Shown here piece by piece: positions 16,810-50,840 of a DNA stretch of 64,000 bases. Below the pieces are notes generated by a model. The model saw only the letters and a program-made list of their open reading frames with translations, searched no databases and was not told the DNA's origin. Every line of letters starts with the position of its first letter. Position 1 is the first letter of the stretch. The position numbers were made by a program, and so were the translations under genes. Source of the DNA: Fructobacillus papyrifericola (GTDB lineage Bacteria > Bacillota > Bacilli > Lactobacillales > Lactobacillaceae); assembly GCF_018437235.1 (NCBI RefSeq), contig NZ_JAAMFJ010000002.1, positions 248,001 through 312,000 of the forward strand. Direction: 5' to 3'.

Positions 16810-16882
16810 TGGTCAGTCAGGGGCTCGAACCCTGGACCCACGGATTAAGAGTCCGTTGCTCTACCAACTGAGCTAACTAACC
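16810..16882 (-). tRNA. tRNA-Lys (anticodon CTT)
   Basis: Cloverleaf of 73 bases: acceptor GGTTAGT/ACTGACC (one G-U pair), D arm GCTCAGTTGGTAGAGC, anticodon loop CTCTTAA (CTT) in a CGGA/TCCG stem, T arm with TTCGAGC, discriminator A. No CCA is encoded. Confidence 0.96.
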
Positions 16883-16974
16883 ATGGTGTCTTTATCAACA
16901 AAAGATATCATACCATAGCTACACTAGACTGACAAGGCTTTTGAGTGATTTTTACGAATCTTCTTCTTTTCTTT

Positions 16975-17502
16975 TTAAGTACCTTGGCCACGCTTTGCTA
17001 GGTGGTTTAACGCCCACTTCGGTAGGAAAGGTTTGACCAGGCTATATAAGTGTCGATCGAAGTCGAGCAACTCGTCTAAATCCTCAAAGTAGTCAATAAT
17101 TTCGGATAGATTCTTTTCCGAGTTCAGCTTTACAAGCAAAATCTTCATAAAAATCCGTTCGTGACGTAGACTTGGCTTCATCTGCTGCAATTCTTTTAAA
17201 ATCCTTGCCAGCACAACTGCATCATGCTGATAACGGTTCGCTTTTTCTGCCAATTCCACGACTCGAAAATCCAAAAAGATGTTTTTCTGACACAAATCGT
17301 TAATGGTGATACCCATTGCGCCAAGTATCAGAACGGTCGTGCTCAACTGGATATCGCTTTGTCCCCGCTCAAATTTTGAGATAGCACTAGCTGATAAGTT
17401 TGTTTCCAGCGCTAAATCCTGTGCAGAAATGCCGCGATTCTTACGTACCCTCCTCACTAATTCACCCAATCGTTGGACTTCTAGAAAGCTGTTTTGGACC
17501 AT
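16975..17502 (-). CDS. XRE-family transcriptional regulator, short Rgg-like
   Basis: An N-terminal helix-turn-helix of the XRE type spans about residues 11-66 (LGELVRRVRKNRGISAQDLA, then SASAISKFERGQSDIQ). The remaining 105 residues are helical. The segment around IIDYFEDLDELLDF resembles the start of the TPR-like ligand-binding domain of Rgg/GadR/MutR regulators, but those proteins are near 285 residues, so this one (175) is short and may be truncated. It is the last gene of the unit ribB - acyltransferase/TPR - TPR - regulator, 23 bases after the TPR gene. It may regulate that unit; no operator was identified. Confidence 0.8.
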   Translation of the reverse strand: MVQNSFLEVQRLGELVRRVRKNRGISAQDLALETNLSASAISKFERGQSDIQLSTTVLILGAMGITINDLCQKNIFLDFRVVELAEKANRYQHDAVVLARILKELQQMKPSLRHERIFMKILLVKLNSEKNLSEIIDYFEDLDELLDFDRHLYSLVKPFLPKWALNHLAKRGQGT

Positions 17503-17525
17503 CTTCTGCCCTTCCTTTTCCTATA

Positions 17526-18110
17526 TTAAACAGTTTCGTGCTTTTTCACCCGAATGACCACGCTTTCATCCATCTTCATGTACAGCGCCGCTAATTCAAT
17601 TTGCCGACGCCGACTCGGCTGCGACCGGGCGTTCACCTTCAGGGCCTTTTGGATGAGGGCGGTTGCTTGGCCAAAGGCCCTTTCCTCATAAAGCAGCGTT
17701 GCTAAGGATTTGTAGGCGTTCAAATTGTTTGGATTTGTCAAAAGTGCCTGATTAAAGAATCCTTTTGCTCTTTTTCTTTGCTTCAAGACAAGTGCGATTG
17801 CACCGGCTAAGTACAAGGCCCGATCGTTTTTCGGATTGAACCGCAGACTTTTCCAGGTACAGTAAATAGTACGTAAAAAGGGATAAGTTTTCGTTAGAAA
17901 GTTTTTATTGACTAACATCAGGTGGGCATAGGCGTGTCCTAGTTCGTAATAACGGGCCGAATGGATGCTCGCATCGCCTGATAGCCCCTTGGCCATTTTG
18001 ATTGCCAACTGGTGATACTGACGTTTTTTTATGGCGGAATGCATCCGGTTTTCAATTCCCTTTCGATTTAGTTCGTGAATGATGGTTAGTTGATCCTTTT
18101 CGTTATTCAA
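17526..18110 (-). CDS. TPR-repeat protein
   Basis: A soluble helical protein of about 194 residues, with tetratricopeptide-like repeats recognisable in the second half (DRALYLAGAIALVLKQRKRA, then NLNAYKSLATLLYEERAFGQ). The start is uncertain: the frame overlaps the end of the acyltransferase gene and offers TTG (18152), GTG (18125) and TTG (18110). I chose 18110 because GAGG lies nine bases upstream; the first ATG is much later (18044). It resembles the TPR tail of the upstream acyltransferase, so the two may have arisen by duplication or work together. Function unknown. Confidence 0.72.
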   Translation of the reverse strand: MNNEKDQLTIIHELNRKGIENRMHSAIKKRQYHQLAIKMAKGLSGDASIHSARYYELGHAYAHLMLVNKNFLTKTYPFLRTIYCTWKSLRFNPKNDRALYLAGAIALVLKQRKRAKGFFNQALLTNPNNLNAYKSLATLLYEERAFGQATALIQKALKVNARSQPSRRRQIELAALYMKMDESVVIRVKKHETV

Positions 18111-19290
18111 TCCCGTAGTCCTCACTTTTCTTCCACCGCATAGCCAAGGCAATCATTTCTAAGCGCCGCCGCTGATCAACCTGCTGTTTCATTTCGATTT
18201 CTGGAAGCCGTTCCATTAGCATATCTGCTTGACCTTGCATCCCCATTACCAAATACAATCGAAAGGACCAGGATCGCAGAGCCGAATTATTTGGGTTTAC
18301 CTGAAGCCCTAACTCATAGTAACGAGCCGCCTGTTGATACTTTTTCTGTTCATGAAAAAGTCGTCCAAGTGCGTACAGTGCCGCATCGTTTTTCTTGTTT
18401 TCTTGCAATACCGCTAAGAAGGCTCTGGCTCCCTTCCTGAGGTAATGGGCACGAACCATGGTCAGCTTTTTTAACAGTCCGAGTCGCGCGTAGGCAATCC
18501 CCACTTCTAACAGAGCAAGCTCGTTTTTAGAATCTTCTTTTAAAACTTTTTGCGCCAAAAGACGTGCTCGCTCAAAGCACTGTCTGCTACTTAAGGTGTT
18601 TGTTGAAAAGTCACGAATTCCCGCCGTGTTATAAAAGCGAGCAGCTTCAACCAAGTCCGTCGAGTCTTTCAACTGCTCTTTTCTGTATTCACCACTCAAC
18701 AAGGAAAGTTCCGTCATCAACTGTCTGGTTAATTCATGTCGCTCGCGATTCTTTTTAAAAAAAACGGTCCTTGGCGCCCCCACTGTAACGTGAACTGGCC
18801 GTTTCTTTGCCCAGTGACTTTTGGCCGGCAGAACATCAAAGGTTCCGTTAATCCCAACCGGGATGATTTCAGCCCCAGCCATTTTGGCCAGTGACAGGGC
18901 GCCATCTTTGCCAACACCAATCAGGCCGGTTCGGCTCCGCGTTCCCTCTGGATAGATGACCAGGACATCCCCCTCTTGCAGATGTTCTTTTACCTCCCGC
19001 ATGGTCTCTAAGACGAGCCCCTTACGATCTAAGGGGATTCCTTGCATCATTTTGTGCCACCAGTTTGAAAGAGGCTTTTCAAAGGCTTCTTTCTTTGTTA
19101 GAAAGTAGATTTTCTTTCGGTCGATTCGCCCTTTGAGCAGAGCCAAAATGACAAAATGATCCAGGTAGCTAGCATGGTTCGCCACGATAATCTTTCCAGA
19201 GACATTCGAGAGGTGTTCTGAATCCGAAACGCTTTTTAAGTACCTTGCTCGAATAAAAAAGGTAATGATTGCGGTGATGACTCTAACCAT
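18103..19290 (-). CDS. PlsC-type acyltransferase fused to a TPR domain
   Basis: The first 215 residues form a 1-acyl-glycerol-3-phosphate acyltransferase-like domain with the catalytic NHASYLD (HX4D) near residue 40 and the glycerophosphate-binding YPEGTRSR near 115. It lacks an obvious strong membrane helix beyond the N-terminal segment. The last 180 residues are TPR-like (DAALYALGRLFHEQKKYQQA, ARYYELGLQVNPNNSALRSW). Standard PlsC is about 200-250 residues, so the TPR fusion is unusual. The ATG at 19290 has GAGGAGG just upstream and overlaps the ribB stop by eight bases, which indicates translational coupling to ribB. The acyl acceptor is not known. Confidence 0.85.
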   Translation of the reverse strand: MVRVITAIITFFIRARYLKSVSDSEHLSNVSGKIIVANHASYLDHFVILALLKGRIDRKKIYFLTKKEAFEKPLSNWWHKMMQGIPLDRKGLVLETMREVKEHLQEGDVLVIYPEGTRSRTGLIGVGKDGALSLAKMAGAEIIPVGINGTFDVLPAKSHWAKKRPVHVTVGAPRTVFFKKNRERHELTRQLMTELSLLSGEYRKEQLKDSTDLVEAARFYNTAGIRDFSTNTLSSRQCFERARLLAQKVLKEDSKNELALLEVGIAYARLGLLKKLTMVRAHYLRKGARAFLAVLQENKKNDAALYALGRLFHEQKKYQQAARYYELGLQVNPNNSALRSWSFRLYLVMGMQGQADMLMERLPEIEMKQQVDQRRRLEMIALAMRWKKSEDYGIE

Positions 19291-19903
19291 TTCTTTCCTC
19301 CTCAAGGTGTTGAATGAGTTCTCGAATATGAACCAGGGGAATTTGCCATTTTTCAGCTAGGGCCTGTAAATCTTTTTGCCTGGCCATTTGACCGTTTGGC
19401 AGTAAAATTTCAATAATCACTGCCAGCTCTTTTTTCTTCGCCAGTTTGGCAAATTCAATGGCCGCTTCCGTATGTCCTGGCCGTTCCCTCACCCCTCCAG
19501 GCCTAGCCACCAAGGGGAAAACGTGGCCAGGTTGAACAAAGTCTTCTCGGGTAGCCTCCTCCTTTGCTAGCTGACGAATCGTAGCGGCTCGATCCCCGGC
19601 TGAAATTCCCGTTGTGACACCCGTTGTCAAATATTCGCCATCGATGGACACAGTAAAAGCCGTGCCGTTTCGCTCCGTGTTATGTTCCGTCATTGGTCCA
19701 AGCGCGAAATGACTGGCCAGTCCCTCCGATATTGGTGTACAGAGTAGTCCCCGACCGTTCGTCACCATAAAGTTAACCGTTTCCGGTTGAATGTTATCCC
19801 CCAGAGCAAGAAAATCCCCTTCATTTTCTCGGTCGGCATCGTCGACAACAATAATGATTCCTCCGGCTGCTAAGACTTTGACGGCTTCGTCGATTTTTTG
19901 CAT
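19283..19903 (-). CDS. ribB: 3,4-dihydroxy-2-butanone-4-phosphate synthase, stand-alone
   Basis: Makes the four-carbon precursor of the riboflavin xylene ring from ribulose 5-phosphate. The 206 residues keep the active-site loop DDADRENEGD (about 21-30), TEHNTERNGTAFTVSID, the GVTTGISAGDRA segment, RPGHTEAAIEFAKLA and the Glu in IIEILLPNG. It is the single-domain form, not fused to GTP cyclohydrolase II. No other riboflavin gene and no FMN riboswitch is nearby. Instead it is the first gene of an operon with an acyltransferase, a TPR protein and an XRE regulator. It may serve riboflavin synthesis with other rib genes elsewhere, or supply the C4 phosphate for another product. Confidence 0.92.
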   Translation of the reverse strand: MQKIDEAVKVLAAGGIIIVVDDADRENEGDFLALGDNIQPETVNFMVTNGRGLLCTPISEGLASHFALGPMTEHNTERNGTAFTVSIDGEYLTTGVTTGISAGDRAATIRQLAKEEATREDFVQPGHVFPLVARPGGVRERPGHTEAAIEFAKLAKKKELAVIIEILLPNGQMARQKDLQALAEKWQIPLVHIRELIQHLEEERNG

Positions 19904-19973
19904 GGTCCACTCCTTTTTGCTTTTATTCTATCCGCCTTTTTCGAACCGCTGCTTTCCCTTTCCAATAAGCAAT

Positions 19974-20017
19974 AAAAAAAGAAGGCGGCATACTTTTCGT
20001 ATGCCACCTTCTTTTTT
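19974..20017. terminator. Terminator after the fructokinase pseudogene
   Basis: GAAGGCGGCATAC/GTATGCCACCTTC stem (one mismatch) with A and T tracts on either side, so it can act in both directions. It separates the broken fructokinase from ribB. Confidence 0.9.
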
Positions 20018-20018
20018 G

Positions 20019-20897
20019 TCAGTATGCCCTGGTGAGTGCGGACTTGGCCAAGTAGAAGCAGCCAAGGATTCCGGCGTCATCCCCGTTGGCAACGGGAACC
20101 AGGTAATCTTCTAATTCCGGTGTTGATAGATAACCGGCCATCAGTTGTGAAAAACGTTCTCGAATTAGCGGTAAGAGAACCGAACGGTGGTTGACCCCAC
20201 CACCAAAAACGATTCGATCGGGTTGCAGAATCGTCGTATAAGTCATGGCTGCCTGAGCCAGATAATCGGCCTCAATTCTCCAGGCCTGGTGATCATCGAC
20301 CAATTCCTTGGCCGACACGCCCTAGCGATCCTCCATGGCCGGTCCGGACGCCAATCCTTCCAAGCAGCGGTCGCCATGGAAGGGACAGTGCCCAGCATAA
20401 TTATCAGCCGGATTTTTTTGCACCATAATGTGCCCGGCTTCAGGATGACCAAAGCCGGATAGCAACTGACCGTTAACGATAATGCCGGCCCCGACACCGG
20501 TTCCAACCGTGAGATAAAGCAGGGACTTCACCTCGGAGTTGGCCCCGTGACGATACTCCGCCCAGGCCGAGCCGTTGACATCGGTCGTCCAATAGTAGGG
20601 AATGTCCCGCCATTTTTTCAGATAGCCCAAAAAGTCAAAGTTGGCCCAGCCAGCCTTCGGCGTATCCAAGACATAACCATAGCTGGTTGATTGCGGGTTA
20701 AGATCAATTGGTCCAAAGGCCGCCACCCCGATGGCTGCGACATCCGGGAAACGGTCAAAGTATTCCGTTACCTTGGCCAAAGTCGTCGGTCCGTCTTCCG
20801 TCTTTAGAACCTGTCGATCGATCATATTAAAGTCTTCATCGCAGACGGCTAAGATAAACTTTGTGCCGCCGGCTTCAATTGCGCCTAGTAATGACAT
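20019..20897 (-). pseudogene. scrK: ROK-family fructokinase interrupted by an in-frame TAG
   Basis: The frame encodes a ROK fructokinase that phosphorylates fructose to fructose 6-phosphate: LLGAIEAGGTKF (phosphate loop), IGVAAFGPIDL, TTDVNGSAWAE, LYLTVGTGVGAG and the zinc segment HCPFHGDRCLEGLASGPAME. Right after AMEDR comes TAG (20322-20324), then the same frame continues with GVSAKELVDDHQAW and the usual C-terminal VFGGGVNHR to 20019. Relatives have Trp here, so a TGG-to-TAG change explains it. The truncated product would lack about a third of the protein. The ATG at 20897 follows AAAGGG. A restart at GTG 20318 is unlikely to give activity. A sequencing error or suppression cannot be excluded. 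Confidence 0.88.
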
Positions 20898-21081
20898 GGT
20901 GACGCCCTTTCCTCTCGTACTTGCACTACATATTGTAAGGGCTTTTATGGATGCAAACAATAGAAAAAACGTGATTTTTATCCAATGGTCTAGTCCAAGA
21001 AAGACTATCGGAATAAGAAAAGAGACAACTCAAGCATTTTTGGTCTATTAAACAGACCGGTTGCCTCGGACTTTTTTAGTC

Positions 21082-50612: not shown

Positions 50613-50840
50613 AAAAAAATCGACCCTTTGTCCACACAAAGAGTCGATCTGTCATCACATTTGATAAATGATAGCAAAGCGCACCGTTTAAAAAACGACA
50701 GTCCGAGAAATCTTCTTCCCCGTCCCAAGCCTCTACTCCCCCGAGTAGAAACTTTCGGCAACCGCGCCTTTAACACCGGATCAAAGCCCTGGGTGGACTC
50801 CCCGGTGCGACTCATCTTGGTCGCAACCTCTTTGTTTGTT
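50613..50840 (-). promoter_or_regulatory. Lysine riboswitch upstream of lysP
   Basis: The minus strand shows the L-box core: AGAGGTTGCGACCAAGATGAG near 50825, then GGAGTC, GGTTGCCGAAAG (about 50755), the TACTCGGGGGAGTA stem and GGCTTGGGA, closing with GACTGTCG near 50695. An intrinsic terminator follows (ATCGACTCTTTG/CAAAGGGTCGAT with eight Ts, 50613-50648). Lysine binding is expected to favour termination and shut off lysP. Confidence 0.93.

Follow-up and report, generated by a model that had tools for sequence, protein, structure and literature searches.

A ribB–acyltransferase gene unit in Fructobacillus as a possible form of a patchy biosynthetic cluster of Lactobacillales

What does an enzyme of vitamin synthesis do in a genome that appears to lack the rest of the pathway? 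This question is raised by a four-gene unit of Fructobacillus papyrifericola (assembly GCF_018437235.1, contig NZ_JAAMFJ010000002.1, positions 248,001 to 312,000; this whole stretch of 64,000 nucleotides is called the window here). On the minus strand, at 16975-19903, ribB is followed in the 5'→3' direction by the genes of a PlsC-type acyltransferase with a tail of tetratricopeptide repeats (TPR), a second TPR protein and an XRE-type regulator. A first-pass annotation, made from the letters alone, had predicted these four open reading frames, all of which are present, and had wavered between a signalling system and an operon formed by chance. Here we propose that the unit is the Fructobacillus form of a new, patchily distributed biosynthetic cluster of Lactobacillales, in which the C4 phosphate made by RibB would be acylated to a lipid or lactone-like product under the control of an Rgg-type regulator. 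We hold this tentatively, at a little short of an even chance, and the product is predicted from gene content, adjacency and domains.

RibB converts ribulose 5-phosphate to 3,4-dihydroxy-2-butanone 4-phosphate (DHBP) and formate. The protein of the unit is, as the first-pass annotation stated, a complete stand-alone enzyme: it scores 240.5 bits with PF00926 and 197.4 bits with the NCBIfam ribB model TIGR00506 (cut-off 177.45), both above the curated cut-offs, and in an alignment with nine other RibB/RibBA proteins its conserved motifs, some residues of which we take to be catalytic, are intact. In family and motifs it thus resembles the RibB and RibBA proteins of the riboflavin pathway, but its surroundings differ. 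The 1.30 Mb genome (assembly 93% complete) has one ribB and no match to ribA (PF00925, GTP cyclohydrolase II) or ribH (PF00885, lumazine synthase), while ribD and riboflavin synthase were not searched; in the window no flavin mononucleotide (FMN) riboswitch is found at the Rfam gathering score, in agreement with the annotation. Because ribA and ribH are absent, RibB would hardly serve riboflavin synthesis here, which contradicts the riboflavin half of one outcome that the annotation had named as refuting its idea, namely a ribB that supports that pathway beside an acyltransferase accepting only lysophosphatidic acid. Elsewhere in the genus, ribA and ribH occur in just two of 13 genomes (G121 and F. 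tropaeoli F214-1, G073), adjoining ribBA fusions. A standalone ribB without ribA or ribH is found in the window genome (G000), F. durionis DSM 19113 (G123), F. pseudoficulneus DSM 15468 (G127) and F. sp. CRL 2054 (G128), and F. tropaeoli carries a standalone ribB in addition to its rib locus.

The partnership of ribB with the acyltransferase speaks for a dedicated cluster. A profile of five rows, spanning the whole acyltransferase/TPR protein, found relatives in eight of 397 Lactobacillaceae genomes at E 1e-25. Seven of them keep the acyltransferase domain (G000, G123, G128, G143, G237, G267 and G317, the copies of G128 and G317 being broken or shortened), and in all seven ribB is the immediate upstream neighbour. 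Of the protein in the eighth genome, G183, only the 102 C-terminal residues are left, and the decayed cluster around them has no ribB; there (L174 4831-7331) a regulator, a medium-chain dehydrogenase/reductase (MDR) gene and an SRPBCC-like gene are retained beside the acyltransferase/TPR end. Among 395 genomes of the order, a set overlapping the 397, a full-length relative adjoins ribB in G552, a member of another Lactobacillales family in which one of 105 genomes has the protein, and an 865-residue match in G580 lies outside any such cluster. With the window protein alone as query, a sample of 121 family genomes gave no full-length relative, the genomes that carry them lying outside that sample. 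Altogether, the pair is found in two more genera and a second family, in five differing contexts (Fructobacillus, G143, G237/G317, G267 and G552).

Outside Fructobacillus the clusters are larger. In G267, ribB and the acyltransferase/TPR gene are followed by genes for a 151-residue protein (weak match to Polyketide_cyc2), an MDR-type oxidoreductase (weak match to ADH_zinc_N_2), a helix-turn-helix (HTH)/TPR regulator, a small unassigned protein and a FabG-like short-chain dehydrogenase/reductase (SDR). G237 has the same series minus the MDR gene, with an RNPP_C regulator and a second SDR, and the contig of G143 ends soon past a 141-residue protein. The cluster of G552 comprises an SRPBCC-like gene, ribB, the acyltransferase/TPR gene, a FabG-like SDR gene and two regulators related to that of G267; its 173-residue and 83-residue products had no match in Pfam. 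SDR, SRPBCC-like and HTH/TPR regulator genes recur across these wider clusters, and the MDR gene occurs in two. An acyl carrier protein (ACP)-like gene, suspected by eye in G267 and G237, is unsupported by Pfam and is not claimed. Furthermore, in Leuconostoc gelidum, L. inhae and L. miyukkimchii (L090, L091, L092) a relative of the Fructobacillus XRE regulator stands directly before an SDR gene, with no adjoining ribB, and this SDR shares 55-56% identity with the second SDR in the G237 cluster. Such overlapping pairs, XRE–SDR in Leuconostoc and ribB–XRE in Fructobacillus, link ribB, the acyltransferase/TPR gene, the SDR gene and the two regulator types with one another. Since the adjacency of ribB and the acyltransferase is conserved over at least five contexts and two families, and oxidoreductases and pheromone-receptor-type regulators join it, a fortuitous operon, which the first-pass annotation took for the plainer reading, is disfavoured. 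In the openly licensed part of PubMed Central (PMC) we found no paper on such a cluster, none combining ribB, acyltransferase, Rgg and tetratricopeptide, and none combining Rgg, Leuconostoc and Fructobacillus.

Within the genus, the co-occurrence that the annotation suggested looking for extends to the whole unit: in F. durionis the four genes are intact, in the same order and at the same site, between the ROK gene and the tRNA-Lys/VanY genes. At this site in CRL 2054 (L067 5756-7481), ribB and the XRE gene are intact, a frame change has split the acyltransferase/TPR gene and an in-frame stop interrupts the second TPR gene. The annotation had considered that the order might be conserved in no relative, which these two genomes contradict. 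Eight other Fructobacillus genomes viewed there (G126, G041, G100, G001, G127, G122, G073 and G124) leave no room for the unit between ROK and VanY; G121 and G125 were not viewed. F. tropaeoli and F. pseudoficulneus have only an adjacent ribB–XRE pair, at other sites and in differing contexts, and F. sp. EFB-N1 (G122) keeps remnants of such a pair. The unit proteins of the window and F. durionis are 47-60% identical, compared with 71-96% for the eight flanking genes compared. For F. durionis against CRL 2054, the ratio of nonsynonymous to synonymous substitution rates (dN/dS) comes to 0.09 in ribB, 0.05 in the XRE gene and 0.08 and 0.14 in the two portions of the acyltransferase gene; for G143 against G237 the values are 0.03 (ribB), 0.13 (acyltransferase) and 0.21 (SRPBCC-like gene). 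Several of the dS values exceed 1, and dS is saturated for the window against F. durionis. From these ratios and the contrast in identity with the flanks it follows that the unit genes are under purifying selection and functional, at least until recently, and that they diverge more quickly than their surroundings.

The coordinates of the unit and its borders are collected in Table 1. The stop codon of ribB and the ATG of the acyltransferase gene overlap by 8 nucleotides, as do the acyltransferase stop and the TTG start of the second TPR gene, and 23 nucleotides separate the latter gene from the regulator. Owing to these two overlaps and the short third spacing, a single transcript with coupled translation is likely for all four genes, which is consistent with the translational coupling of ribB and acyltransferase proposed before. 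The TTG start is placed by its overlap with the upstream stop and by the F. durionis homologue. Immediately 5' of ribB, a promoter scan gave no promoter-like site. In the upstream ROK (fructokinase-type) gene, at 20019-20960, an in-frame stop codon at 20322-20324 interrupts the frame, which then runs on to 20019; the best matches of the gene in genus relatives are open frames of about 300 residues or longer, and the stop reflects a nonsense mutation of recent date or else an error in the sequence. Further off, the window holds a lysine riboswitch on the minus strand (50669-50840; RF00168, 99.8 bits).

Table 1. Genes of the unit and features at its two borders, in window coordinates
Feature	Position	Strand	Evidence
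ribB (RibB)	19283..19903	-	PF00926, E 1.3e-71; TIGR00506 over cut-off; motifs kept in alignment
PlsC-type acyltransferase with C-terminal TPR tail, 395 residues, ATG at 19290	18103..19290	-	PF01553, E 1.5e-24, and TPR matches; NHxSYLD and PEGTR; full-length relatives in other genera
Second TPR protein, about 194 residues, TTG at 18110	17526..18110	-	divergent duplicate of the acyltransferase tail, 28% identity over 170 residues
XRE regulator, 175 residues, short Rgg relative	16975..17502	-	HTH_3; Rgg2 profile match, E 1.2e-11; AlphaFold2 model and Foldseek
Strong intrinsic-terminator-like stem 3' of the upstream ROK gene, unit border	19975..20017	-	19-pair stem and T run
Promoter-like site before the downstream tRNA-Lys gene (tRNA 16810-16882), other unit border	16907..16935	-	TTGTCA-17-TATGAT

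The acyltransferase scores 86.7 bits with PF01553 (cut-off 23) and is followed from about residue 290 by TPR matches, of which TPR_19 and TPR_17 lie above their cut-offs; a PlsC-type enzyme with a TPR tail, as first annotated, is thus borne out. With the lysophospholipid acyltransferases PlsC and Aas it shares the PF01553 domain and the HX4D and EGTR motifs, which an alignment locates in NHxSYLDHF and YPEGTR, and it differs from them in its long tail and its ribB neighbour. The PlsC-like proteins of relatives, judged by eye, also stand apart: the first motif is of PHR type in all 13 whose starts were seen, and the one seen in full has SGTR rather than EGTR. The window genome itself encodes another PlsC-like protein, distinct from that of the unit. 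For the second TPR protein the open frame holds, but its TPR matches are all sub-threshold; it resembles the tail of the acyltransferase at 27-28% identity. The AlphaFold2 (AF2) model of the acyltransferase/TPR protein, built from two sequences, had a mean predicted local distance difference test (pLDDT) score of 57.8 and was not used. A plasmid source of this protein was considered and dropped, no plasmid match covering 80% of the query for either of two queries, and the window acyltransferase had no match among named genome contigs.

The regulator carries an HTH_3 domain (39.1 bits). Among solved structures Rgg2 is the best match to a profile of eight XRE proteins, over residues 11-125, and the fold agrees: with an AF2 model of pLDDT 82.5, the 15 Foldseek matches at E 0.001 comprised 12 Rgg2 chains, two Rgg144 chains and one Listeria regulator, so that the annotation's term 'Rgg-like' is apt. 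The best of these, an Rgg2 chain, is 25% identical over 165 columns with TM-scores of 0.65 (query) and 0.45 (target), the C-terminal third being missing. Judged by model and profile, the protein appears to be an Rgg relative that lacks the last third. RNPP_C (PF18768) gave no score in it, was above cut-off in the G237 regulator (29 bits) and sub-threshold in one of the two of G552, and was not listed for that of G267. Compared with peptide quorum sensing by Rgg and short hydrophobic peptides (SHP) in Streptococcus, the regulator fold and the best profile match are the same, whereas the protein has 175 residues instead of about 280, its neighbours are ribB and an acyltransferase, and at the two borders of the unit no peptide gene is conserved in all three species. 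Opposite the start region of ribB (19898-19975, plus strand) there is a hydrophobic TTG frame of 25 residues, antisense to the gene, and CRL 2054 has a similar frame of 26 residues; none is present among the short frames at the two borders in F. durionis, and the frame is probably a by-product of the purine-rich ribosome-binding site.

We thus return to the proposed biosynthetic cluster and to how it might work. From its family and intact motifs, RibB would supply DHBP and formate, and the PlsC-type enzyme, with the TPR tail perhaps as its tether, may transfer a fatty acyl group from ACP or coenzyme A to DHBP, or to a reduced form of it, at the free hydroxyl. Further steps would fall, in the larger clusters, to the oxidoreductases and the small SRPBCC-like protein, which could turn the acyl-C4 phosphate by reduction or cyclisation into a lipid or a lactone-like compound; the Rgg/RNPP-type regulator, whose gene is present, would control the cluster. 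Because the distribution is patchy, divergence fast and decay repeated, a signal, an antagonist or another dispensable compound suits the cluster better than a role in core metabolism. The acylated C4 signal or lipid imagined in the first-pass annotation would fit the extended clusters; the regulator could equally answer a peptide, however, and the four window proteins have no AfsA (PF03756) match at E 0.01, the rest of the genome not having been searched.

Several observations weigh against the proposal. The Fructobacillus unit itself has no SDR, MDR or SRPBCC genes; the SRPBCC-like gene is only weakly assigned (three of five members, with a best E of 0.0068), with no relevant match among solved structures. 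A second ribB match exists in G143, G237 and G317, so that the absence of riboflavin genes is established for the Fructobacillus members only. Standalone ribB far outnumbers the cluster, with at least 49 genomes versus 7, and once standalone RibBs are included in the RibB tree, those of the cluster form no separate clade: G552 groups with G095, and G267, G143, G237 and G317 group with G328 and G306, the ribB of G328 standing in a purine series. This tree holds 36 of 43 intended sequences (G298, G244 and five RibBA fusions are left out), and the rows of G552 and the window are flagged as long and unsure in placement. The flanking genes have still lower dN/dS (ROK 0.01, holB 0.03), and to our knowledge no product or activity is known for the cluster.

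The nearest chemical precedent for acylating DHBP is the reaction of AfsA/PBS enzymes, in which a beta-ketoacyl thioester is coupled to dihydroxyacetone phosphate (DHAP), a C3 phosphate, as shown in vitro for gladiostatin (PMC7756379); the AfsA-type reaction with DHAP is also described for gamma-butyrolactones (GBLs) (PMC7480387). The GBL and butenolide systems of Streptomyces resemble the present proposal in combining a small phosphorylated keto-alcohol (DHAP there, DHBP here) with a fatty acyl group, in having reductases nearby and in placing a regulator next to the synthase gene (PMC7756379, PMC7480387). The unit differs in that its four proteins contain no AfsA domain and a PlsC-type acyltransferase and a dedicated RibB take its place; given the lack of an AfsA match in the window proteins, it is by sequence membership not an AfsA system. 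The receptor in Streptomyces is of TetR type, and the regulator here is of Rgg type. DHBP is a C4 methyl ketone and DHAP a C3 hydroxymethyl ketone, so the same chemistry would be expected to give a methyl-substituted butenolide phosphate. In its boldest form, the idea is that a beta-ketoacyl ester of DHBP closes on the ketone to a butenolide, is trimmed by SDR and MDR enzymes and is sensed through the Rgg-type regulator, making acylated 4-methylbutenolides or C4-polyol lipids an unrecognised family of signals or antagonists in Lactobacillales; we regard this specific form as unlikely.

Other explanations start from the same genes. RibB might be kept for its second product, formate, from which cells that lack pyruvate formate-lyase (PFL) would make 10-formyl-tetrahydrofolate (10-formyl-THF) and purines, with the acyltransferase neighbours merely using or removing DHBP. 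Standalone ribB, defined by an open frame below 300 residues, occurs in 49 of 397 genomes (unlisted rows and one case of 315 residues excluded), 33 of them without a second ribB match, and it stands in the series purH-purD-fhs-ribB in G328, adjoins purE in G395, lies between two Xan_ur permeases in G298 and is three genes away from fhs in G361 (loci L133 1694-6889, L142, L137 and L140). All 13 Fructobacillus genomes have fhs and none a PFL-like gene, and PFL-like genes are rarer among the 49 genomes with standalone ribB (3) than among the other 348 (104; Fisher p 2e-4, uncorrected for phylogeny). Given these purine and formate-THF neighbours and the PFL contrast, formate supply deserves to be taken seriously as a rival account of standalone ribB at large, and perhaps also of the two-gene ribB–XRE pairs. 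Yet the contrast ignores phylogeny, and the three g12 genomes combine standalone ribB with a PFL-like gene; an intact standalone ribB is missing in eight of the 13 Fructobacillus genomes despite their fhs; and purine or formate-THF genes or purine-type permeases are near just 8 of 34 standalone loci, a share for which chance expectation was not computed and neighbours were assigned partly by Pfam (seven proteins) and partly by eye. As a role in formate supply also leaves the strict tie to the acyltransferase/TPR gene, the oxidoreductases and the Rgg-type regulator unexplained, we think it a rather unlikely account of the unit. Control of standalone ribB by FMN riboswitches was likewise considered and set aside, one of 31 loci having such an element, downstream of ribB; in that genome, G282, it lies just past ribB (L141 5899-6015) and before a gene for a 188-residue membrane protein that looks RibU-like by eye.

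Two further rivals concern the acyltransferase and the regulator. An ordinary phospholipid acyltransferase, acting on lysophosphatidic acid or glycerol 3-phosphate and standing next to ribB by chance or regulatory convenience, would agree with the normal catalytic motifs of the PF01553 domain and with the best NCBIfam match, an acyl-ACP-phospholipid O-acyltransferase model, though this match is far under its cut-off. The adjacency to ribB held in five contexts and two families, the other PlsC-like protein of the genome and the missing ribA and ribH speak against it and leave it distinctly improbable. Alternatively, the unit could be the regulon of a peptide pheromone, with the peptide as input, a modified membrane lipid that has the C4 phosphate as its scaffold as output, and enzymes that make no secreted signal. 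The regulators belong with the Rgg/RNPP proteins, for which the ligands known are peptides (titles in the Protein Data Bank name SHP pheromone receptors), and the acyltransferase and SDRs parallel the acyl-DHAP route to lipids. Set against this, the short frames at the borders of the unit include no convincing peptide gene, the antisense frame not being shared by F. durionis, and the window regulator is without the last third of Rgg, so we judge such a regulon improbable.

In summary, our analysis describes a conserved, patchy and fast-evolving cluster around RibB, in a window genome apparently without the riboflavin pathway. Should the proposed acylation of a C4 phosphate be right, a vitamin-pathway enzyme would have a second role, outside vitamin synthesis, in making the precursor for a dedicated pathway to a small molecule, and a non-peptide class of product would be added to cell–cell communication in lactic acid bacteria. 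If the butenolide route held as well, it would be a Firmicute counterpart, reached through independent enzymes, of the butyrolactone hormones of Streptomyces. The cluster also puts the puzzle of orphan ribB genes in directly testable form, as a choice between the C4 phosphate and formate as the wanted product.

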